Part shown: piece after piece, positions 600 through 10,298 of the stretch
Layout of the letters: each line of letters begins with the position of its first letter
Numbering within the stretch: position 1 is the stretch's first letter
Assembly (NCBI GenBank): GCA_016200845.1
Contig: JACQDW010000087.1
Location: 1 to 36,761 of the forward strand
From: Burkholderiales bacterium
Lineage (GTDB): Bacteria > Pseudomonadota > Gammaproteobacteria > Burkholderiales > Burkholderiaceae_D
Reading direction: 5' to 3'
Length of the DNA stretch: 36,761 bases
Made by a program: the position numbers and the translations under genes
Notes under the pieces: model-generated
The model's input: only the letters and a program-made list of their open reading frames with translations
The model's database searches: none
What the model was told of the DNA's origin: nothing

Positions 600-1931
600 T
601 CATCGATACGCAACGGCTAGGACTGGCTCCAATATCCACTCCCAAATCTTGCGTCGATCTTGCACAACATCCGCTTCTAAGGTCATGCCCGATTTCAGAT
701 GTTGTGCTGTGCCATAGGCCAGAATGCTTTGTTGGTCTAATTTGACTTTGATGCGGTACAGGGCTTCGTTGCTGTTGAAACCTTGTATGTTTTGTTGTGC
801 GTTGCTGAGGATGGTGGTGGCCAAGTTAGGTGGCAATTCGTTCGGTGCAAATGGGGTGCTGCTGACGTCGATCACTGTGCCTTGTTGTAGCCCGAATTTT
901 TGATAGGGGAAGGCTGCATAGCGGATCAACACCTTTTGGCCTTTGGCGACAAAGCCTGTGGTGCGGCTGGGTGCGTAGAGATGGGCTTCGAGTTGGCTCA
1001 GTTGCTCACCTTCGTTTTTATTCGCATCACTGGGAATGAGAGTAGCTAAGACTTGCCCGCCATTGATGATTTGCCCTACCTGCGCACTCATTGCCGTGAT
1101 GGTGCCTGTCTGGTTGGCGGTGATCAAACTCATTTTGCGATTGCGATTTTCGGCCATTTCTTGCTGCAGGCTGGCGAGGGCGCGCTCTAGTTGTACTTGG
1201 TCGGTGGCGAGGTTGTTGGCGACTTGTTGTAGCTCGGCTGCGATGGCGAGTTTGTTGGCTTGTTGCTGCAGGCTTGCTCGCTTTAAGGTGCTTAAGCGCG
1301 TGGCGATGTCGATCAGGTCTTCTTGTTTTTGTTGGGTTTGTGCAGCGGAGACGTAGCCATTGGTTTGCAGGGTTTGGTATTTAGTGACGCTTTCTTGGGC
1401 GAGTGTGTGGCGGCGTTGGAGTAGGGTTATTTCTTGCTCTAGCTGCGCGGCTTCGTTGGTAAGGTTATTAAGCCTTAAGTTGAGCGCTTGCTGTTTGTCT
1501 TGGGCTTGGACATGACGCAGGCGCTGCTCAGACTCCAGGCTTTGCTGACGTGTTGCGAGTTGTTGGGCAACTAAGGCGGTGATTTCACCTTTTTCTCCCT
1601 GACGCTCATTGGAGAGTTCAAACAGGACTTGTCCCGCATGGACGACATCGCCTTCTTTGACATGGCTATGCATCAAAAGGCCAGAGCTCGGTGCTGCAAT
1701 ACTAATCGAACCTGTGATGGGGATGGTAATACCAGTGACGCGGGCTTTTTTGGTCATTGCGCCTAGGCTGACGAAACTAACAAGGGCTATCGCGACCAAA
1801 GCAGCAACCCCGGCGATCAACCAGCCAGAGATAGGCTGTGCCAGACGAATCGCGCCCATCCATTGCTGGCTTAATGCGGCTGTGACTTCGGGGCGGAATA
1901 AGGGGCTGTTATCGTCTGTGTTGTGCTGCAT
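600..1931 (-). CDS. HlyD/CvaA-type membrane fusion (periplasmic adaptor) protein
   Basis: The 443-residue protein has the layout of HlyD-family adaptors of type I secretion and bacteriocin export. It has a cytoplasmic N-terminus (1-34), one membrane segment at about 35-57, a lipoyl-like half (SGLLMHSHVKEGDVVHAGQ), a long Gln/Leu-rich coiled coil at about 105-260, the second lipoyl half (GTITAMSAQVGQIINGGQ), and a C-terminal beta domain. Such proteins link an inner-membrane ABC exporter, often one with a C39 peptidase domain, to an outer-membrane channel. No ABC partner or TolC-like gene is visible: downstream is an AT-rich gap and an IS end, upstream the unrelated halogenase. The substrate is unknown. 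Confidence 0.85.
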   Translation of the reverse strand: MQHNTDDNSPLFRPEVTAALSQQWMGAIRLAQPISGWLIAGVAALVAIALVSFVSLGAMTKKARVTGITIPITGSISIAAPSSGLLMHSHVKEGDVVHAGQVLFELSNERQGEKGEITALVAQQLATRQQSLESEQRLRHVQAQDKQQALNLRLNNLTNEAAQLEQEITLLQRRHTLAQESVTKYQTLQTNGYVSAAQTQQKQEDLIDIATRLSTLKRASLQQQANKLAIAAELQQVANNLATDQVQLERALASLQQEMAENRNRKMSLITANQTGTITAMSAQVGQIINGGQVLATLIPSDANKNEGEQLSQLEAHLYAPSRTTGFVAKGQKVLIRYAAFPYQKFGLQQGTVIDVSSTPFAPNELPPNLATTILSNAQQNIQGFNSNEALYRIKVKLDQQSILAYGTAQHLKSGMTLEADVVQDRRKIWEWILEPVLAVAYR

Positions 1932-1976
1932 TATTGCGATCCATGATGTCGAGAAGTATGTGCATTTCGATAAAAG

Positions 1977-1993
1977 ATGGTTTATTAGACCAT
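1977..1993. promoter_or_regulatory. Inverted repeat upstream of the hlyD-like gene
   Basis: ATGGT (1977-1981) and ACCAT (1989-1993) form an inverted repeat with a 7-base AT-rich centre, 45 bases upstream of the hlyD-like start codon. Spacing and symmetry fit a dimeric repressor site. It differs from the direct-repeat element in front of the halogenase, so it need not bind the same regulator. It could be chance in AT-rich DNA. Confidence 0.25.
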
Positions 1994-2078
1994 ACTTTTA
2001 TAAATTTTTGTGGATTTTTCAATTTTATTTTTTCAATTCTTCACAACAACATACTTATAACTCAAAATCACCAGACTC

Positions 2079-2126
2079 AATACCACTTTAATACCGATTG
2101 ACTTTGCATTTTGATCTCCGTAAAGT
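2079..2126 (+). promoter_or_regulatory. Promoter of the halogenase operon with 24-bp operator overlapping -35
   Basis: The element AATACCAC-N4-ATACCGATTGAC spans 2079-2102. Its two ATACC half-sites are 11 bases apart (one helical turn). Its 3' end is part of the -35 hexamer TTGACT (2098-2103), which lies exactly 17 bases from the -10 TAAAGT (2121-2126). The same arrangement precedes the TonB-dependent receptor (21 of 24 bases identical) and gntR (19 of 24). Overlap with -35 suggests repression, most simply by the GntR protein encoded at 7817-8551; that assignment is inference. Confidence 0.7.
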
Positions 2127-2157
2127 GCCACAAACAAGTCTTTGTGGAGGCACTGGC

Positions 2158-3696
2158 GTGAGCGATATGCGAGTAAAAACGATAGCGATTATTGGTGGTG
2201 GTACGGCGGGGTGGTTGGCTGCGAATCATTTGGCAGTGGAGTTGCGCTCTGAGCCGGATATTTCTATTACTGTGATCGAATCGCCGGAGATCGGCATCAT
2301 AGGCGTCGGTGAAGGGACGGTGCCGCATATCAAGCAGTCTTTGATGAAGTTTGGTATTGCTGAGGCCGATTTGCTGGCTTCGTGTGATGCGACTTTTAAG
2401 ATGGGAATTAAGTTTCAAGATTGGATGCAGACTTCGCATCCAGCTTCTGATAATTTCTATTACCACCCCTTCGCTTCGCCTTATCCCGGCGGGCTCGACG
2501 TGAATAGCCTGTATTTGCAGCGCGCTGATTCCATGCGCTTTTCTGAGGTATGTGAGACGCCATTTTTAGCTGAGGCGATGAAGTCGCCCAAGCATGCTGC
2601 CTCGCAAGAATACCAAGGTGCGGTGAACTATGCTTACCATTTTAATGCCGTCAAATTTGGACAATTGCTGGCAAAAAATGCGCGTGAACGCTTTGGTGTG
2701 CAGCATGTGAAGACGACCTTGCGCGCTGCGGTGTTGGGGAACGACGGCGCAGTCTCGCACCTAATCGCGGAAGATGGTCAAACTTTGCAGTTTGATTTTT
2801 ATGTCGATTGCACGGGCTTTCATTCTCTGATCTTTGGCAAGACTTTGAACGTGCCCTTTATCGACAAGTCTAAGCAAATTTTATCGGACTCTGCGCTTGC
2901 GGTGCAGATTCCCTATGAGACATCACAGGAGAAGCTCGCGCCCTACACCTTGGCCAAGGCGCATAGCGCGGGTTGGTTGTGGGATATTCCCTTAACTCAG
3001 CGGCGCGGGGTCGGCTTTGTGTATTCCAGTGCGCACATGAATGAGACCCAAGCACTGGATGGTTTGTCTTCTTATTTGAAAGTCGATGCCTCGCGCTATG
3101 CGCCGCGCAAGATTCCTATGCGCATCGGTTATCGCGAACAGTTTTGGGTAAAGAATGCGGTGTCACTGGGCTTGGCGCAAGGCTTTGTCGAGCCACTGGA
3201 AGCAACCTCGATTTTTGTCACCGATTTTGCCGCTGAATTATTTGCGCGCAATTTTTCTGTGCACAAAGACGGCATGGCGGTTGCTGCCGGATATTGCAAC
3301 AAAGTGCTGGCCTATACATGGGAAAGAGTGATGGATTTTGTGCAGCTGCATTATTGCATCTCAGATCGACGTGATACGGCGTTCTGGCGCGACAATACCG
3401 AGGGAGCGACACTGTCTGATGTACTGTCCGAACGACTCGCAATCTGGCGTCATCATGCGCCAAAAAAATCGGATTTTTTCAGCCGCTTTGATTTGTTCGA
3501 CGTCGATAATTTTCTGTTCGTCCTGTACGGCATGAATTATCCAACCATGAAGAAAAACATCAGCGACTATGAACGCCGCTGTTTTGAAAACGAAATCGCC
3601 GCCATCGATCAACGCAAACACGCTTTGTCCACGCAATTATTAGATCACCGCGATTGGCTGCATCAGTTTAATTTGGCTTATCAAGGAAAAATGTGA
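2158..3696 (+). CDS. Flavin-dependent tryptophan halogenase family protein
   Basis: The 512-residue protein belongs to the FAD-dependent halogenase family (PrnA/RebH type), which uses reduced FAD, O2 and halide to make a hypohalous species. Visible hallmarks are the FAD-binding GGGTAGW (residues 13-19), the family signature WLWDIP (273-278, WxWxIP), Lys81 in ATFKMGIKF, at the position of the catalytic lysine of PrnA/RebH, and the conserved FVEPLE (343-348). I chose GTG at 2158 because GGAGG (2146-2150) lies 7 bases before it and the protein then begins just ahead of the FAD motif; a TTG at 2098 would fall inside the -35 box. It overlaps the next gene by 4 bases. Members beside TonB receptors are usually uncharacterised, so halogenation of free tryptophan should not be assumed. 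Confidence 0.88.
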   Translation: MSDMRVKTIAIIGGGTAGWLAANHLAVELRSEPDISITVIESPEIGIIGVGEGTVPHIKQSLMKFGIAEADLLASCDATFKMGIKFQDWMQTSHPASDNFYYHPFASPYPGGLDVNSLYLQRADSMRFSEVCETPFLAEAMKSPKHAASQEYQGAVNYAYHFNAVKFGQLLAKNARERFGVQHVKTTLRAAVLGNDGAVSHLIAEDGQTLQFDFYVDCTGFHSLIFGKTLNVPFIDKSKQILSDSALAVQIPYETSQEKLAPYTLAKAHSAGWLWDIPLTQRRGVGFVYSSAHMNETQALDGLSSYLKVDASRYAPRKIPMRIGYREQFWVKNAVSLGLAQGFVEPLEATSIFVTDFAAELFARNFSVHKDGMAVAAGYCNKVLAYTWERVMDFVQLHYCISDRRDTAFWRDNTEGATLSDVLSERLAIWRHHAPKKSDFFSRFDLFDVDNFLFVLYGMNYPTMKKNISDYERRCFENEIAAIDQRKHALSTQLLDHRDWLHQFNLAYQGKM

Positions 3697-4409
3697 GCGC
3701 ACCTTTTGCTATCCGCATGCCACCCGATATTCAGGCGTTAACCATAGGCGAACATCAAGCCTTGATCATCGATGATTTTTTGCATGATCCCGAAACGCTC
3801 AAAGCCATCGCTATCGCAAGCCAGTTCAGTGAGTATCCTAACTTTCACAACAAGAAAGGCTATCCCGGCATACGCGCCGATGCGCCCGCTGATTATTCCA
3901 GCACCATCACGGCGTTATTGGAGCCTGTGATTAAAGCAAATTTTGATGTTTCAGAAGAGCTGCCGCTGCGCAAAAGCGTCTGTGCATTTTCGCTGACGAC
4001 GATTCCAGCCTCCGAGCTGAGCGCGCTACAAAGAACACCGCATTTCGATGCCAGCACGCCGCATCATTTTGCAGTCTTACTATATCTCTGCGATGAACGT
4101 CACGGTGGCACAGGATTCTATCGCCATCGTGCTACCGGGTTACAACAAATCACGGCAAACAACCGTGAGCACTATCTTGATACTTATTACGAGGAAGTGA
4201 ATAGAATCAGCCCGGCACAACGCTATTTTGATGCGTCCAACGAGCAGTTTGAGTTTTTGGGGATGATACCCGCAAAATTCAATCGTCTAGTGATCTATCG
4301 CGGCAGCCTTTTGCATACGGCGTGCATACATCCGCAAAGGAGTATTAGCGCTGATCCGCGCTCGGGGAGATTGACGGTGAATACATTCTACGACTTTGGT
4401 GAAGCTTAA
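3693..4409 (+). CDS. 2OG-Fe(II) oxygenase-like protein (resembles DUF6445)
   Basis: The 238-residue protein starts at a GTG that overlaps the halogenase stop codon (GTGA), so the two are translationally coupled. It has the elements of a double-stranded beta-helix dioxygenase: HFD at 117-119 (HxD), His208 in RGSLLHTA, and Arg226 in GRLTVNTF, spaced as expected for Fe(II) and 2-oxoglutarate ligands. It resembles the uncharacterised DUF6445 group often found beside tryptophan-halogenase-like genes and TonB-dependent receptors. No signal peptide is seen, so it is probably cytoplasmic. The substrate is unknown; acting with the halogenase on a common, perhaps imported, compound is inference from the operon. 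Confidence 0.7.
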   Translation: MSAPFAIRMPPDIQALTIGEHQALIIDDFLHDPETLKAIAIASQFSEYPNFHNKKGYPGIRADAPADYSSTITALLEPVIKANFDVSEELPLRKSVCAFSLTTIPASELSALQRTPHFDASTPHHFAVLLYLCDERHGGTGFYRHRATGLQQITANNREHYLDTYYEEVNRISPAQRYFDASNEQFEFLGMIPAKFNRLVIYRGSLLHTACIHPQRSISADPRSGRLTVNTFYDFGEA

Positions 4410-4436
4410 TCCCGATTCATCCGTGGAGTAAAGATG

Positions 4437-4464
4437 AAAAAACCCGGATCGCTCCGGGTTTTTT
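4437..4464. terminator. Bidirectional rho-independent terminator
   Basis: A perfect 12-bp stem (4437-4448 with 4453-4464) has a TCGC loop. Its GC core (CCCGGA/TCCGGG) is flanked by six A on one side and six T on the other, so it works in both directions. It lies between the converging oxygenase-like gene (stop 4409) and TonB-dependent receptor gene (stop 4481) and can end both transcripts. Confidence 0.92.
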
Positions 4465-4480
4465 ATTCGCTACACGCGTC

Positions 4481-7138
4481 TTAGAACTTCGCGTTCAAAC
4501 TCAGACGATAACTACGCTCACCCAAGAAAGACCAAGCTGGGTAGCCCGCTTTCAAAGGATCTTTGACTGTCGAGTTGACACCGGCAGCGCCGTATTGCAC
4601 ATCATCTTGCTTGAGCAAATTGGTCGCTTCGAATTGCAGGCGGAACTGGCTATTGATGTTCCAACCTACGCTCGCATCCAAAGTGCCGTAGGCATCGTGC
4701 ATGCGATTGCCGTACCAGCCAGTCTCACGCACCATGTACTTAGAACGCCAGTTGTAAGCCAGACGTGCGTTGTACGATGCATTTTCCCAGTAACCAACTA
4801 CGTTCACATTATGCTTAGAAGACAGTGTGAACACATTGAGCTCGTCTTGGTAGCTGGCGGCTGGTGCTGTTGCGTTAGACAAGGTGTAGTTGGCAGCCAG
4901 ACCAAAGCCTTGATCAAAGCTGTGATTAATTTGCGCTTCGATACCTGTGATTTTTCCACCACCAGCATTCACGAACTGATTGACCGTCCAGCTATCCTTC
5001 TTGCTGTCTGGGCTGACAACACCGATTTTTTGATCAATCTTGGTATTGGTCGTGATGAAGTTGTTGATACTCTTGTGGAAAGCCATCAAGGAAATCAAAT
5101 CACCTTTGCCATAGTAATACTCAACACCAAAATCAATCTGGCTCGACTTCATCGGCTTTAAGCCAGCGCTACCATAAGTCACGCTCTCATTGCCAGCCAC
5201 CGTGTCCTGGAAGCCGTTCTGAGTCGCGATGAACATATTGTCGTAGTTAGGACGAGTAATTGTCTGTGCAGCCGTGAAACGTACGATGGTATTTTTGTCT
5301 GTGTCGTAGGACAAATTCAGGCTAGGCAAGACATCGTGATAGCTGGCCTTTTCTTGAATTTTGCCTTTTCCCCAGCCAGCATTCTGATCGATGTCGCCAG
5401 CAGCCACTGGTGTGCCATCGATCTTATAACCTTCGGACGTGACTTTAGTGCCGATGTAACGCAAGCCAAAATTACCGTGCAATTTATCTTGCTCGAAGTT
5501 GAACATGCCGTACAGTGCTGTATTGTCTTCTTTCAAGACACCATAACCACCGCGCTGCTCTACCCAACCTGTGATGTTGGCGTCTGTGTTGGCCATCATC
5601 GCATCGATATTTGGACGTGGTGAAGCCCAGCCCAACGTACCCATCGCGATGCTGCCGTTGTACAAACCTGCCGTTGCTGTTTCTTTGGCGGTTGCTGCGA
5701 ACACGGCTCTGTCAGTCCCTTTGGTGAAAGTGTGTTGAGACGTGCGGAAACCTGTTTTGAAGGAAGAAATTGCACCCCAATCCACGTTCAAGCTTAAATC
5801 AGCTTGTGCATAGTCTTCTTTGTCGCTATTCGGACCACGTGACGTTGCCCATGAACCAGCCGGACCAATCATCTTCGGTAAGTTCGCCAAAGTCACATCC
5901 TGACTCGACGCAGGGTTGATCACAATTTGCTTACCTGTCGCATCGATACTGCCTGTCCACTTCGGCAAAGTTGCGCCCGTTGTCCACCAGCCATATGAAT
6001 AGTTGGTGGTCTTAGAAGTGCCGCCGTCCGCCTTCGTGCTACCAGCCACAGCATCAAATTTAATGCCGTCACCCTTATAACTACCATTGAGCGTGAAGCT
6101 ATCTGACGTCATCTTGCCAGTACGCGCCCAAGTCTGAATGAAGGAGTCCGATGCTTTCGCAGCAGGCGTCGTGCTGGCGACGCAAACACCATTTGGATTA
6201 AACGCAGATTTAACGCTGGTATTGCGTGAAGTACAGTTTGGATCTGGAAAAATATAATGGCTGGTGTTGGAGTTATTCGCATCCAGTTCCAGTTTCATAT
6301 AGTTCAAACCAAGATCAACACCCTTGGCAGGACGTGCTTGCAAATTGATGTTCAGCGCTTCGCGTTTGCGCTCTTGTACGAACGTAGTTGGCGCAACGTC
6401 TGCCGACCAACGCGCATCGGATTCAACGCCGCGACGGATGTAGTCGCCTTTTTCAGTAGCACCAGCAATCAAAATACCAAAAGTATTTGCATCGTTTTTC
6501 CAGCTCACTAAGCCAGACAGATCTTTCGTCATTTTGTCACTGACACTGCCCTTGCCCAATTTCACGCCAACAAACGCAGTCCCTGATTTCAAATCCAAAG
6601 GCTTACGTGTTTTCACGATCACCGTGCCGCCAATACCGCCTTCTGTCAGATCAGCTTGTGCAGACTTATACACATCCATGCCGCCGATTAATTCAGATGG
6701 CAACAAGGAATAATTAAACGAACGATCGATTGCCTGCTGGTCATACCAACCAGTCGATGCAACTGTTTGCCCGTTTAATGTGGTGTAGGTCATTTGCGGA
6801 TCAGAGCCGCGCACAGATACTGATGCACCCTGACCAAAGGCACGACCAACTGTCACACCAGGAATACGGCCCAGGGATTCACCGACGTCGGTGTCTGGCA
6901 ATTTACCAATATCTTCTGCAGACACCGCATCGACCACTGCATTCGCATTGCGCTTGATATTCACCGCTGATTGCAAAGCCATGCGAATACCGGTCACGGT
7001 CACTTGTTGCGCCTCTTCTTTCACTTCGGCTTTTTTGCCCGCGTCTTGTGCTTGCGCGTGCATGGAAACGCCCATCACCAGCACTGCCACAGCAGCGGCG
7101 ATTGGCGTCAAGCCTAATTTCGAACTACTTCTCTTCAT
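4481..7138 (-). CDS. TonB-dependent outer-membrane receptor (TonB-Xanth-Caul type)
   Basis: The 885-residue protein has a signal peptide (about 1-31, ending HAQAQ), a TonB-box-like QQVTVTG (44-50), a plug domain (about 55-175, with GKLPDTDVGESLGRIPGV and VSVRGSDPQMTYTTLNGQ) and a long beta-barrel ending in Phe, the usual outer-membrane end signal. The plug signature is that of receptors common in Xanthomonas and Caulobacter, several of which import oligosaccharides or amino sugars. ATG 7138 is preferred over TTG 7150 because a run of G at 7143-7147 gives a ribosome binding site and the signal peptide starts there. Its promoter shares its operator with the halogenase operon, linking transport to the two oxidative enzymes. 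The ligand is unknown; a carbohydrate is plausible from the family and the GntR/UTRA regulator. Confidence 0.92.
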   Translation of the reverse strand: MKRSSSKLGLTPIAAAVAVLVMGVSMHAQAQDAGKKAEVKEEAQQVTVTGIRMALQSAVNIKRNANAVVDAVSAEDIGKLPDTDVGESLGRIPGVTVGRAFGQGASVSVRGSDPQMTYTTLNGQTVASTGWYDQQAIDRSFNYSLLPSELIGGMDVYKSAQADLTEGGIGGTVIVKTRKPLDLKSGTAFVGVKLGKGSVSDKMTKDLSGLVSWKNDANTFGILIAGATEKGDYIRRGVESDARWSADVAPTTFVQERKREALNINLQARPAKGVDLGLNYMKLELDANNSNTSHYIFPDPNCTSRNTSVKSAFNPNGVCVASTTPAAKASDSFIQTWARTGKMTSDSFTLNGSYKGDGIKFDAVAGSTKADGGTSKTTNYSYGWWTTGATLPKWTGSIDATGKQIVINPASSQDVTLANLPKMIGPAGSWATSRGPNSDKEDYAQADLSLNVDWGAISSFKTGFRTSQHTFTKGTDRAVFAATAKETATAGLYNGSIAMGTLGWASPRPNIDAMMANTDANITGWVEQRGGYGVLKEDNTALYGMFNFEQDKLHGNFGLRYIGTKVTSEGYKIDGTPVAAGDIDQNAGWGKGKIQEKASYHDVLPSLNLSYDTDKNTIVRFTAAQTITRPNYDNMFIATQNGFQDTVAGNESVTYGSAGLKPMKSSQIDFGVEYYYGKGDLISLMAFHKSINNFITTNTKIDQKIGVVSPDSKKDSWTVNQFVNAGGGKITGIEAQINHSFDQGFGLAANYTLSNATAPAASYQDELNVFTLSSKHNVNVVGYWENASYNARLAYNWRSKYMVRETGWYGNRMHDAYGTLDASVGWNINSQFRLQFEATNLLKQDDVQYGAAGVNSTVKDPLKAGYPAWSFLGERSYRLSLNAKF

Positions 7139-7318
7139 GTGATCCCCCAAAACGTCCAGATAACAAACAATGCAGGCAATGCAAACTTGGTTCGCCTCGC
7201 GCTGCTCGATTTAAAACTTAACTTCAATAGCAACTTCGGAAATCCCCCCACGGCTAACTGCTTCAAATCATGCATTCAACAAAATGCAAGCAAAGCAACT
7301 AAATTCTCGAAGAGCTTC

Positions 7319-7366
7319 ACTGTAATTTCACGCTATGTGCTTGTCAATCGGTATCTATGTGGTATT
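7319..7366 (-). promoter_or_regulatory. Promoter of the TonB-dependent receptor with shared operator
   Basis: Read on the minus strand, AATACCAC-N4-ATACCGATTGAC occupies 7366-7343 and matches the halogenase element in 21 of 24 bases, with the same 11-base half-site spacing. It runs into -35 TTGACA (7347-7342), followed after 17 bases by -10 TACAGT (7324-7319). The transcript would have a leader of about 170 bases before the ATG at 7138. Confidence 0.72.
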
Positions 7367-7380
7367 AAATAATTTTGATT

Positions 7381-7409
7381 GGTATTAAATTGAACTTTTT
7401 ACTGGTATC
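7381..7409. promoter_or_regulatory. Two further GGTAT half-sites upstream of the receptor promoter
   Basis: GGTAT occurs at 7381-7385 and 7404-7408, in the same orientation as the operator half-sites at 7350-7354 and 7361-7365, giving steps of 11, 20 and 23 bases. The first extra copy repeats TGGTATTAAAT of the operator edge exactly. They may be auxiliary sites that extend regulator binding. The surrounding DNA is AT-rich, so part of the resemblance may be chance. Confidence 0.45.
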
Positions 7410-7552
7410 AAAATTTCCGTGCAGACAGAATCATTAAATCCTTGATTTTTGGTCGTTTTTTTCGCAAAAACTTGTCTTATTTATTAATGGTATGGAGATT
7501 TTCAGCAAATCAGCTTGTGCTAAAAAACATCAATCCGGCAAGAGGACTGCAT

Positions 7553-7627
7553 AGAGTTTTCCCACAAAAAATAGTGGGGAAGCGAAGGAGGAAAGCGATG
7601 AAACAAGTAATGAACGTGACGGTCTGA
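7553..7627 (+). other. Hairpin followed by a very short ORF with a strong ribosome binding site
   Basis: In the gap between the receptor promoter and gntR, a hairpin (TTTCCCAC at 7557-7564 with GTGGGGAA) is followed by GGAGG and an ATG at 7598 that opens only nine codons (MKQVMNVTV, stop 7625-7627). The binding site is better than that of many real genes here. It could be a leader peptide, a decayed gene start, or chance. Apart from this and the promoters, nothing else was recognised between 7410 and 7715. Confidence 0.25.
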
Positions 7628-7715
7628 AATGAATTCAGGCAGCGCAGCGACTTTACAACAGACCTGTTGCCATAAAGCATGCCTACGTCACGCATGGGTG
7701 AATGATAGAAGCTGA

Positions 7716-7763
7716 CATACCAGTTAAATGCCTATTGACATCCACTTTTCAAGTACCTAGTCT
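7716..7763 (+). promoter_or_regulatory. gntR promoter with a third copy of the shared operator
   Basis: Bases 7716-7739 (CATACCAG-N4-ATGCCTATTGAC) match the halogenase operator in 19 of 24 positions and run into a consensus -35 TTGACA (7735-7740). After 17 bases comes TAGTCT (7758-7763), a weak -10. The first half-site is kept and the second is degenerate (ATGCC), which would suit weaker autoregulation. The consistent placement against -35 is the main support. Confidence 0.6.
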
Positions 7764-7816
7764 AGATTTACAAATTTGAAATTGAGAAGTCTAACGCACC
7801 CGCAGGAGGGGAAAGC

Positions 7817-8551
7817 ATGCAAGCAAGTCTGCCCGATCTCAAGCCAGATGGCGACAATTCCACGCCCCTCTATCTACAACTGGCGAACAAGCTAGCCACG
7901 CACATTCGCAGCGGCTACTGGCAGCCTGATCAAACTCTGCCTTCAGAACGCTTGCTGGCGCAAAATCTGCAATTGTCGCGCGTGACCGCACGCAAAGCTC
8001 TGCTCAGTCTGTGTGAAATCGGACTACTCACTCGCAAACATGGTTCTGGCACTTACATCACGCCGAAGCTGGAACAGGCACTCTCGCGTCTGACCAACTT
8101 CAGCGAAGAGTTACGGCAACGCGGCTTCACTCCGGGATCGCAATGGCTGTCGCGCGACACCGGTGTTGCCTCGACCGAAGAAATTTTATCGCTGGGCTTG
8201 TCGCCTTATTCCATGGTCACTCGCCTCAAACGTCTGCGCACTGCCGACAGCGTTGTGATGGCGATAGAAAGTACCACCATCCCCAGTGTTTATTTTCCCG
8301 ATCCGCAAGTCGAGATCGACGGGCTCTACGACTATCTCGATCTCAATCAACTCGCCCCCAGTCGCGCCCTGCAACGCATACGCGCCGTCAACGCCAGTGC
8401 CGAACAAGCGCGCATCACCGGACTCAAAACCGATGCGCCCATGCTTCTCATCACACGCATCGCCTACCTTCCCAGCGGTGCCGCAGTCGAGCTCACACAT
8501 TCTTATTGCCGCAGTGATTATTATGATTTTGTGGTGGAGCTAAAGCGTTAG
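7817..8551 (+). CDS. GntR-family transcriptional regulator (HutC/NagR subfamily, UTRA domain)
   Basis: The 244-residue protein has an N-terminal winged helix (about 17-83), with PLYLQLANKLATHIRSG, LPSERLLAQ, the recognition helix SRVTARKAL and the wing KHGSGTYI. It is followed by a UTRA ligand-binding domain (about 95-240, ending ELTHSYCRSDYYDFVVEL). This subfamily senses small metabolites such as sugar phosphates or histidine-pathway compounds and usually represses neighbouring uptake and catabolic genes. AGGAGG (7804-7809) precedes the ATG by 7 bases. It is divergent from the TonB receptor. The shared operator in three local promoters makes it the likely local repressor. The inducer is unknown. 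Confidence 0.9.
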   Translation: MQASLPDLKPDGDNSTPLYLQLANKLATHIRSGYWQPDQTLPSERLLAQNLQLSRVTARKALLSLCEIGLLTRKHGSGTYITPKLEQALSRLTNFSEELRQRGFTPGSQWLSRDTGVASTEEILSLGLSPYSMVTRLKRLRTADSVVMAIESTTIPSVYFPDPQVEIDGLYDYLDLNQLAPSRALQRIRAVNASAEQARITGLKTDAPMLLITRIAYLPSGAAVELTHSYCRSDYYDFVVELKR

Positions 8552-8711
8552 CGTTTATTGACTTTGATTTGTGGAGAAATGATGGAGAAATGTAGAGCTC
8601 TCTGCAATTGAAGGAAAAGTGCAACAAGCACCCAAAACACGCTTTCATTCCGCTTGTCATCAGCAAGCTGATACGACTACACTCAAACTCTTTAGCCCCA
8701 CGTGTATCGTC

Positions 8712-10298
8712 ATGAAATTCTCTATCGGAGTCCGCTTGTTTTTTGCGGTACTGTTTTCTATGATCACAGTCAGCGTCCTGATACTGCTGCTCATGCGCGA
8801 GAAAATTGGTGATAGCTTTGCCGAGTATACGCAAAGGATAGAACTGGATCGCCTGCAAGAGCTCAGTGATGCGCTCGAATCACAATATGCACGGCATGGC
8901 GATTGGCGATTTTTGCCGCAAATGCCAGAGAAGAAATCAGACTGGATCAAAGAGGAGTTGCTGAGACTGTATTCATTGCGTTTGCATGACAAATCAATCG
9001 AACTAGAGCGCGAGCTCAGTGCCAAGCCAATACTCAATAACGCCCCGGTAGAACCAGAAATCGAAGAACCAAAAATCACCCGGCTCTCCGCACCATCCAT
9101 TCCACCAATACCGCCGCTCCCACCTCTGCCACCGCCGCCACCATCGCCGCCGGATCAACTCGCATTGAGCAATGCGGTGGAACTGCCTGATTTCTTTAGC
9201 CGCATCAGTTTGTTCGACATGGACGAGCACTATCTGGCAGGGCAAAAGCTGTCGCAATTGCCCGACAAGCTCAGACCCTTGTTCTATGAAGGCGCTGTCA
9301 TTGCTTACCTCGGCATACAAAAATCGAAGCTGCCGAGCGATGTCATGTCCAAAGATTTTCTGACGGCGCAAGCCGAGACCATCATGCTCAGCATCATCGC
9401 CAGTATTATCTTCAGCGCCCTTGTGGCGACGCTACTCGCTTATCATTTTCGCCGCCCCATTCTTCGCTTAGCCAACGGCGCTAAACAACTCGCAGACGGG
9501 CAATTCGAGACACGCCTGCCCGAGCAGCGTAGTGATGAGCTGGGAGAACTGGCGCGCAGCTTTAATCAACTCGCCGCCAAGTTGGAGCAAGCAGAGCAAA
9601 GCAGACGGCAATGGGTGGCGGATACTTCGCACGAATTACGCACACCGATTTCGGTATTGCGGGCGCAACTGGAAGCGATACAAGACGGCATACGCAGCGC
9701 CAATCCCGAGAATATCGCTTTAATGCTCAAGCAAATTTTGTCGCTCAATAAACTCATCGATGAGCTCTACTTATTGGCGCGCTCCGATCTGGGAGAATTG
9801 AGCTACCATTTTCAACAGGTAGACTTGCGCACCTTGGTGCAAGAAGAATGCGCCAATTTTTCTGAGAAGTTCAAGAAGGCGCAACTCAGCTTGGAATTAC
9901 AGCTTGGCGAAGATGGAATCTGGTTGCAAGCTGATGCAGACCGGCTGCGCCAAGTGCTGATCAATTTATTGGAAAACAGCGTGCGCTACACGCAGGCAGG
10001 CGGCCTTGTCCGCCTCACCATAGAGACAGGAGATGGATATCAGGCAGATGAAAAAACCCACAAACAAAACCTGCACTTGCGCATTGAAGACAGCGCCCCC
10101 GGACTCTCTCAATCTGAACTGGCGCGTTTGGGCGAGCGCTTTTATCGCGCGGAAACATCGCGCAATCGGGAACAAGGTGGTGCTGGATTGGGTTTAGCCA
10201 TGTGCAAAAAAATCATACAAGCGCATCAGGGGCGATTAAGCTTTGCATGCAGTGATTTAGGTGGACTCGCCATCGAAATACAACTCCCTCTAAAATAA
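8712..10298 (+). CDS. BaeS-like sensor histidine kinase with a proline-rich periplasmic insert
   Basis: The 528-residue protein has a first membrane segment at 8-28, a periplasmic sensor region (29-221), a second membrane segment at about 222-244, HAMP (245-297), a HisKA domain with phospho-accepting His307 in DTSHELRTPISVL, and an ATPase domain with N box (LINLLENSVRYT, 416-427) and G2 box (GGAGLGLAMCKKI). The sensor region holds a nearly pure proline run at 128-147. The G1 box is DSAPG (460-464) rather than the usual DxGxG. Overall it follows BaeS, an envelope-stress kinase. ATG 8712 is chosen because the membrane helix starts there; upstream in-frame codons are not protein-like. The regulator gene follows after 3 bases. 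Confidence 0.88.
   Translation: MKFSIGVRLFFAVLFSMITVSVLILLLMREKIGDSFAEYTQRIELDRLQELSDALESQYARHGDWRFLPQMPEKKSDWIKEELLRLYSLRLHDKSIELERELSAKPILNNAPVEPEIEEPKITRLSAPSIPPIPPLPPLPPPPPSPPDQLALSNAVELPDFFSRISLFDMDEHYLAGQKLSQLPDKLRPLFYEGAVIAYLGIQKSKLPSDVMSKDFLTAQAETIMLSIIASIIFSALVATLLAYHFRRPILRLANGAKQLADGQFETRLPEQRSDELGELARSFNQLAAKLEQAEQSRRQWVADTSHELRTPISVLRAQLEAIQDGIRSANPENIALMLKQILSLNKLIDELYLLARSDLGELSYHFQQVDLRTLVQEECANFSEKFKKAQLSLELQLGEDGIWLQADADRLRQVLINLLENSVRYTQAGGLVRLTIETGDGYQADEKTHKQNLHLRIEDSAPGLSQSELARLGERFYRAETSRNREQGGAGLGLAMCKKIIQAHQGRLSFACSDLGGLAIEIQLPLK

Follow-up and report, generated by a model that had tools for sequence, protein, structure and literature searches.

The window analyzed here, a contig stretch of 36,761 nt from a Burkholderiales bacterium, contains a 24-bp element that recurs in the promoters of a halogenase operon (site A), of a TonB-dependent receptor (site B) and of a gntR regulatory gene (site C). 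Sequence comparison indicates that the three elements very probably are NagQ-type operators set in a strikingly fixed promoter register. We give a probability of about 0.82 to a reading in which a NagQ-type repressor would act on ATACC repeats fused to the -35 box, be relieved by amino sugars and govern a regulon that combines a run of nag genes with receptors and the halogenase. The sites, their geometry and conservation, the gene neighbourhood and the contact residues kept in the regulators are direct observations. A fixed unit of operator and -35 box lends itself well to the question of why a repressor site stays in strict register with one promoter element. Through the repeated elements, the genes of N-acetylglucosamine use are predicted to be linked with an outer-membrane receptor and, in the present strain, with a halogenase. 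Flavin halogenases linked to receptors, like DUF6445 proteins, have to our knowledge no settled role.

The repeated element and the NagQ heptamer

Site A (AATACCACTTTAATACCGATTGAC) lies at 2079-2102 on the plus strand, site B (AATACCACATAGATACCGATTGAC) at 7366-7343 on the minus strand and site C (CATACCAGTTAAATGCCTATTGAC) at 7716-7739 on the plus strand, with pairwise identities of 21/24 (A/B), 19/24 (A/C) and 18/24 (B/C). Re-reading of the sequence recovered the coordinates, the first two of these identities and the common orientation that an earlier note on this DNA had given. It also bore out the geometry claimed there, namely that the element overlaps TTGAC, that a candidate -10 hexamer begins exactly 17 bases past the -35 hexamer in all three promoters, and that the half-sites are direct repeats with their ATACC cores 11 bases apart. 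The third promoter is the poorest, since its -10 matches at 3/6 bases and the second half-site of C is weaker (ATGCC); not every position of the three second half-sites fits AATACCA. The predicted elements are the following.

2079..2102, plus strand: predicted operator A, heptamers AATACCA (2079-2085) and AATACCG (2090-2096), its end overlapping the -35 box
2098..2126, plus strand: predicted halogenase-operon promoter, -35 TTGACT (2098-2103), 17 bp, -10 TAAAGT (2121-2126)
7343..7366, minus strand: predicted operator B, heptamers AATACCA (7366-7360) and GATACCG (7355-7349), its end overlapping the -35 box
7319..7347, minus strand: predicted receptor promoter, -35 TTGACA (7347-7342), 17 bp, -10 TACAGT (7324-7319)
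7380..7386, minus strand: third heptamer, AATACCA, 20 bases upstream of box B
7403..7409, minus strand: fourth heptamer, GATACCA, 43 bases upstream of box B
7716..7739, plus strand: predicted operator C, heptamer CATACCA (7716-7722) and degenerate AATGCCT (7727-7733), nearest to the nagK promoter class
7735..7763, plus strand: predicted gntR promoter, -35 TTGACA (7735-7740), 17 bp, poor -10 TAGTCT (7758-7763)

The pattern of site A, with up to three mismatches allowed, retrieves only A and B, site C being missed because it carries four mismatches, and has no match in 100 shuffles. A generic promoter scan of positions 1900-8700 detected promoters A and B and missed C; the seven promoter-like sites of this region are not in excess over the shuffle mean of 7.9.

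Read on the opposite strand, AATACCA is TGGTATT, the unit of the direct repeats reported for NagQ, a HutC-subfamily GntR regulator of N-acetylglucosamine use, as an exception to the palindrome rule (PMC4494728, in its available text); the motif is termed tandem in a second report (PMC5343134, likewise available in part). The direct-repeat arrangement, which the earlier note had taken as a departure from the GntR norm, is thus the already published signature of NagQ. As far as these partial sources describe it, the NagQ regulon shares with the present one the heptamer, the direct repeats and a HutC-type regulator (GntR plus UTRA domains) beside nagK-, nagA- and nagB-like genes, whereas in the present case a fixed unit joins the -35 box to the proximal half-site, the regulator has a paralogue, and a receptor and a halogenase-DUF6445 pair carry the box. 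The likeness to NagQ is one of motif, domains and neighbourhood. Two other GntR-family members, NanR and FarR, also use direct repeats according to the available text of PMC4494728, but their units (TGGTATAW and TGTATTAWTT, respectively) differ from AATACCA, and NanR is placed there in the FadR subfamily, unlike the HutC-type regulator of the window. NagR and DasR recognize palindrome-like dre-sites (PMC4333415, available text), whereas the direct repeats of the window do not qualify as such. We noticed no publication joining NagQ, a halogenase and a TonB receptor and found no literature combining tryptophan halogenase, TonB-dependent receptor and N-acetylglucosamine, both being weak negatives because most subscription journals lay outside the search.

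The genome to which the window belongs is represented by 3.43 Mb of sequence and is 70.6% complete. Here, a pattern derived from the three sites has four exact matches, namely A, B and C by construction plus C16. Allowing one mismatch adds C33, and allowing two adds another two matches, which are no better than the reversed-pattern control with its three. The C16 element precedes a nagK-gntR-nagA-nagB-hexosaminidase run, which it would control judging from its position. The C33 element precedes a second TonB receptor, truncated by the contig end and recognized by eye from its N-terminus (the short fragment has no match to the window receptor at E 1e-15). Both promoters combine TTGACA and TAAAGT at 17 bases, a spacing counted by eye. 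Within the C16 run, curated cut-offs are passed by nagA and, with the model for beta-N-acetylhexosaminidase, by the GH3 protein. For nagK and nagB the best matches, to the NagK and NagB-II models, stay below cut-off; the nagB product is a NagB-II-like SIS protein. Chance is implausible as the source of the elements, because the shuffles yield no match and the extra genome matches C16 and C33 precede fitting genes. The regulon is larger than the small set of receptor, halogenase plus oxygenase and regulator proposed in the earlier note, since the element also fronts the nag run and the second receptor. The shared operator and the predicted control of the receptor stand; the halogenase box is not conserved (see below). 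Given the completeness of the genome, further members may be missing.

Other candidates were set aside. An unfused ATACC-N6-ATACC pair between acetate-CoA ligase and fumarase genes (C155:8372-8387; L202, L230) is without TTGAC and was not counted; one other of 43 genus genomes matches it, with a mismatch, and the exact 18-mer is found in no other. Since NagA releases acetate, this site is conceivably real. A pair at C111:7906 was dismissed as a chance match without a gene call, the reversed control of that scan giving two. A class-wide scan for AATACCA-N4-AATACCA gave matches in 27 of 369 genomes, apparently by chance, with TTGAC at the offset in 0/3 inspected loci (L202, L219, L226), and a one-mismatch scan of the relatives, matching at least 48 of 60 genomes with the reversed control also present in many, was not used for counts.

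Promoter register in the relatives

The relatives considered are the best 80 of 208 loci, chosen by their GntR protein and not by the motif; 46 of them (L010-L055) are mostly Oxalobacteraceae and 34 (L056-L089) mainly Sphaerotilaceae. A strict box, defined as ATACC-N6-ATACC, occurs 69 times in 46 of the 80 loci. The search of related genomes for the element at a fixed distance from TTGAC, which the earlier note had proposed, finds this register in L010-L055, where 38 loci hold 61 strict boxes and TTGAC stands at the same fixed offset in every one (61/61). A TA...T hexamer follows in 60 of these (46 at 17 bp and 14 at 18 bp, with none in the remaining case) under a loose test that allowed spacings of 16-19, and the backward pattern has no match in the same 751,301 bases. 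The boxes lie before nagK (37), before a receptor (22) or before neither (2), in loci that were picked around gntR and in which nag genes are therefore expected. They are not independent, because the loci are related and the boxes amount to 16 distinct 24-mers.

Eight loci of L010-L055 have no strict box (L030, L043 and six of Collimonas). In Collimonas, AATACCA or GATACCA and a degenerate second half-site precede TTGACA. In L043, the box upstream of nagK at 9075 has an extra 11-base repeat, forming three tandem near-heptamers that the strict pattern misses.

When TTGAC sequences were scored in a looser test, the best one within 350 bp of nagK reached 8-10 of 10 in 44/44 cases in L010-L055. 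In the more distant L056-L089, the corresponding TTGAC often has a half-site at the usual distance; it scored at least 7 of 10 in 18/28 cases and lower in eight, two having no TTGAC in reach. Scores of at least 7 are found for 78 of all 1,786 TTGAC in L010-L055, 44 of them before nagK, and for 18 of 951 in L056-L089, the same number as that of the nagK-side sites. Upstream of nagK in many L056-L089 loci, a reversed heptamer pair straddles the -10 box and a single ATACC-like half-site is still joined to TTGAC.

Regulators, proposed mechanism and alternatives

Among solved structures, the best relative of the window GntR is NagR/YvoA of Bacillus subtilis (E 4.7e-43), followed by others including DasR of Streptomyces. 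A second GntR, located between nagK and nagA in the C16 run, is identical to it at 187 of 244 positions (76%). The base-contact residues Arg38, Arg48 and Gly69 of NagR are kept in both copies (3/3), and the SRVTARKA helix is identical in the two. Of the 15 contacts described for NagR with glucosamine-6-phosphate (GlcN-6-P) or N-acetylglucosamine-6-phosphate (GlcNAc-6-P) in PMC4333415, nine are identical in the window GntR; the paralogue has ten, as it keeps S165. The view of the earlier note that the GntR protein of the locus reads the element thus stands insofar as this protein is a likely reader, but it is not the sole candidate, given a paralogue with the same three DNA contacts. Phylogenetic analysis groups the window GntR with the C16 protein and with the GntR proteins of U. 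fentianense, U. flavidum and others in a clade of 10 rows (support 96/98), on a branch of 0.38 versus 0.008 for the paralogue, although the tree program warns that long rows are unsurely placed. The pair shows a dN of 0.17 and a saturated dS from which no dN/dS ratio can be computed; these values fit purifying selection and give no impression that the window gntR is in decay. Site C is on average identical to nagK promoters at 28.8 of 36 positions and to receptor promoters at 24.0 of 36, so that the promoter in front of the window gntR is probably a copy of the nag one, nagK itself being absent.

From NagR, DasR and NagQ we infer the binding, repression, effector, operon structure and transcription starts of the proposed mechanism. 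A HutC-subfamily GntR repressor (the window copy, the 76% paralogue or both) would bind the AATACCA direct repeats. With 11 bp, or roughly one turn of the helix, from one ATACC core to the next, the repressor would meet both half-sites on one face of the DNA, and since the promoter-proximal half-site is joined to the -35 box (ATACC-N2-TTGAC), the bound repressor would exclude RNA polymerase. Uptake of amino sugars would bring GlcN-6-P or GlcNAc-6-P onto the UTRA domain and open the promoters of a regulon formed by the nagK-nagQ-nagA-nagB-hexosaminidase run and TonB-dependent receptors; in this strain it would also take in the halogenase-DUF6445 pair along with the duplicated regulator. The weak site C could afford mild autorepression of the duplicated regulator, and the four-heptamer arrays of some receptor promoters stronger or cooperative binding. 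Of the 80 loci, only 47 of which span at least 20 kb, 21 have window-type receptor, DUF6445 or halogenase genes (at least 60% identity) no more than 10 kb from the GntR gene (DUF6445 in 17, receptor in 14, halogenase in four); this proximity, together with the nag-type receptor operator, makes amino sugars a testable inducer of these genes and a context for them.

Several observations weigh against this reading. NagR binds GlcNAc-6-P and GlcN-6-P only with millimolar affinity and does not detach from DNA in vitro (PMC4333415, available text), so that relief may be a weakening of binding and not a release. The NagR residue S165, a phosphate contact, is replaced by G in the window copy only and Y228 by C in both copies. 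None of the NCBIfam equivalogs listed for the window GntR names it NagQ. The strict boxes of L056-L089 are fused to the -35 box in 0/8 cases, having the opposite orientation and lying over the -10 box, and two Massilia loci (Oxalobacteraceae) of this group have no nagK match and fall outside the strict-box loci. Genome G005, which is 97% complete, keeps the box before nagK and has no GntR relative at E 1e-60. In its locus (L192; G005:C1:279000-293000) the box, at 8045 on the minus strand, is fused to the -35 box, nagK is followed by nagA and gntR is missing, with no GntR relative (E 1e-15) in the 14 kb around the box; recent loss of gntR, another binder and promoter constraint are alternative explanations. 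A same-direction heptamer pair precedes 0/7 halogenase orthologues (66-71% identity; L184, L185, L186, L187, L040, L066, L071).

A broader scenario, which we consider unlikely, is that half-site and -35 box co-evolved into a composite kept across much of Burkholderiales and that a duplicated nagQ took over the receptor-halogenase locus, resulting in two repressors with one operator code and two signals. Its first part refers to ATACC-N2-TTGAC, which persists in degrees even though the position of the full pair shifts from in front of the -35 box (L010-L055) to over the -10 box (Sphaerotilaceae). The second part concerns one lineage, in which DNA contacts are kept, change is fast elsewhere and the signal would be new or tuned.

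It also appears unlikely that the window GntR has a private regulon and a different effector, the nagK-side paralogue being inactive on the window promoters. Such a specialization would agree with the long branch and the loss of the phosphate-contact serine in the window copy, as well as with the restriction of the 76% pair to this genome among the 43 genus genomes searched at E 1e-60, several of which are incomplete (G064 has a different second GntR copy, 59% identical to the query, and neither G005 nor G025 has any at this threshold). However, the two copies do not differ in the three DNA-contact residues or in the SRVTARKA helix, and genomes G019, G034 and G061, with one GntR match each, carry the same kind of receptor box.

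Receptor and halogenase promoters and their genes

Receptor orthologues were assessed if they reached 60% identity and had 500 bp of upstream sequence. The perfect fused box precedes all seven that belong to L010-L055 or to the genus loci (L017, L023, L037, L040, L185, L186, L187) and is found in 0/1 outside these (L079); nine more have at most 14 bp upstream and are not assessable. In the receptor promoters of L010-L055, ATACCA recurs 20/21 bases upstream of the box in 15 of 22 and 43/44 bases upstream in 10 of 22, as compared with 0 of 37 nagK promoters at either position; site B has one at each, neither of them mentioned in the earlier note.

The halogenase promoter is a different case. We regard it as quite unlikely that site A is a recent or chance match and that control is limited to the promoters of the receptor and gntR, even if none of the seven halogenase orthologues is preceded by a same-direction pair (344 bp of upstream sequence being assessable in L185), because with the matrix of the relatives site A scores 39.1, practically as site B (39.2), and has its -10 box at 17 bp. 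The best same-strand score before four halogenase orthologues is 5.6, and a single TTGAC, with no half-site pair, lies no more than 500 bp from the halogenase in L071. Further points against a chance match come from L186, where a copy of the leading 12 bases of site A (AATACCACTTTA), continued by degenerate sequence, stands some 420 bp ahead of the halogenase and may be a remnant of the site, and from L040 and L187, in which the box of a divergent gene lies about 400-450 bp upstream of the halogenase and shared control is thus possible. The halogenase operator would thus represent a local gain or a loss elsewhere. The earlier note had considered absence of the element upstream of orthologous genes as refuting its proposal; such absence holds for the halogenase as a conserved member of the regulon, but not for this strain, nor for the receptor.

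That the block is conserved chiefly as a promoter module (a -35 box with upstream contacts) and resembles the NagQ site by coincidence is very improbable, for although TTGAC and the TA...T hexamer lie within the block and G005 retains it with no gntR nearby, 59 of the 61 boxes of L010-L055 precede nagK or a receptor (in loci chosen around gntR), the additional ATACCA of receptor promoters are far from the -35 box, and the heptamer equals the published NagQ unit.

The genes of the window locus under the predicted NagQ-type operators are the following.

2158..3696, plus strand: flavin-dependent halogenase (Trp_halogenase, PF04820), GTG start at 2158 assumed (the open reading frame tool starts at TTG 2098)
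3693..4409, plus strand: DUF6445 protein by domain match, the 'oxygenase' of the earlier note, activity putative
4481..7138, minus strand: TonB-dependent receptor, TIGR01782 (TonB-Xanth-Caul) above cut-off, ATG at 7138 assumed (open reading frame 4481-7150)
7817..8551, plus strand: GntR/HutC-subfamily regulator, NagQ-like paralogue, with GntR and UTRA domains

The nearest solved structures of the halogenase include the tryptophan halogenases 9lu2 and 2pyx. Regarding its relatives, in Sapientia (L040) the halogenase adjoins nagK directly, and in L186 (inferred to be U. fentianense) one other receptor gene lies between nagK and the halogenase. In L189 (5164-6678, 6840-9596) and L190, the box precedes another receptor, after which comes a tryptophan halogenase distinct from that of the window (33-34% identity); halogenases may have been drawn into the regulon more than once. 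The histidine kinase flanking the window locus is at best 46-60% identical in six relatives. The long gap between receptor and gntR contains, at 7598-7627, a purine-rich stretch followed by a reading frame of nine codons, possibly a gene remnant.

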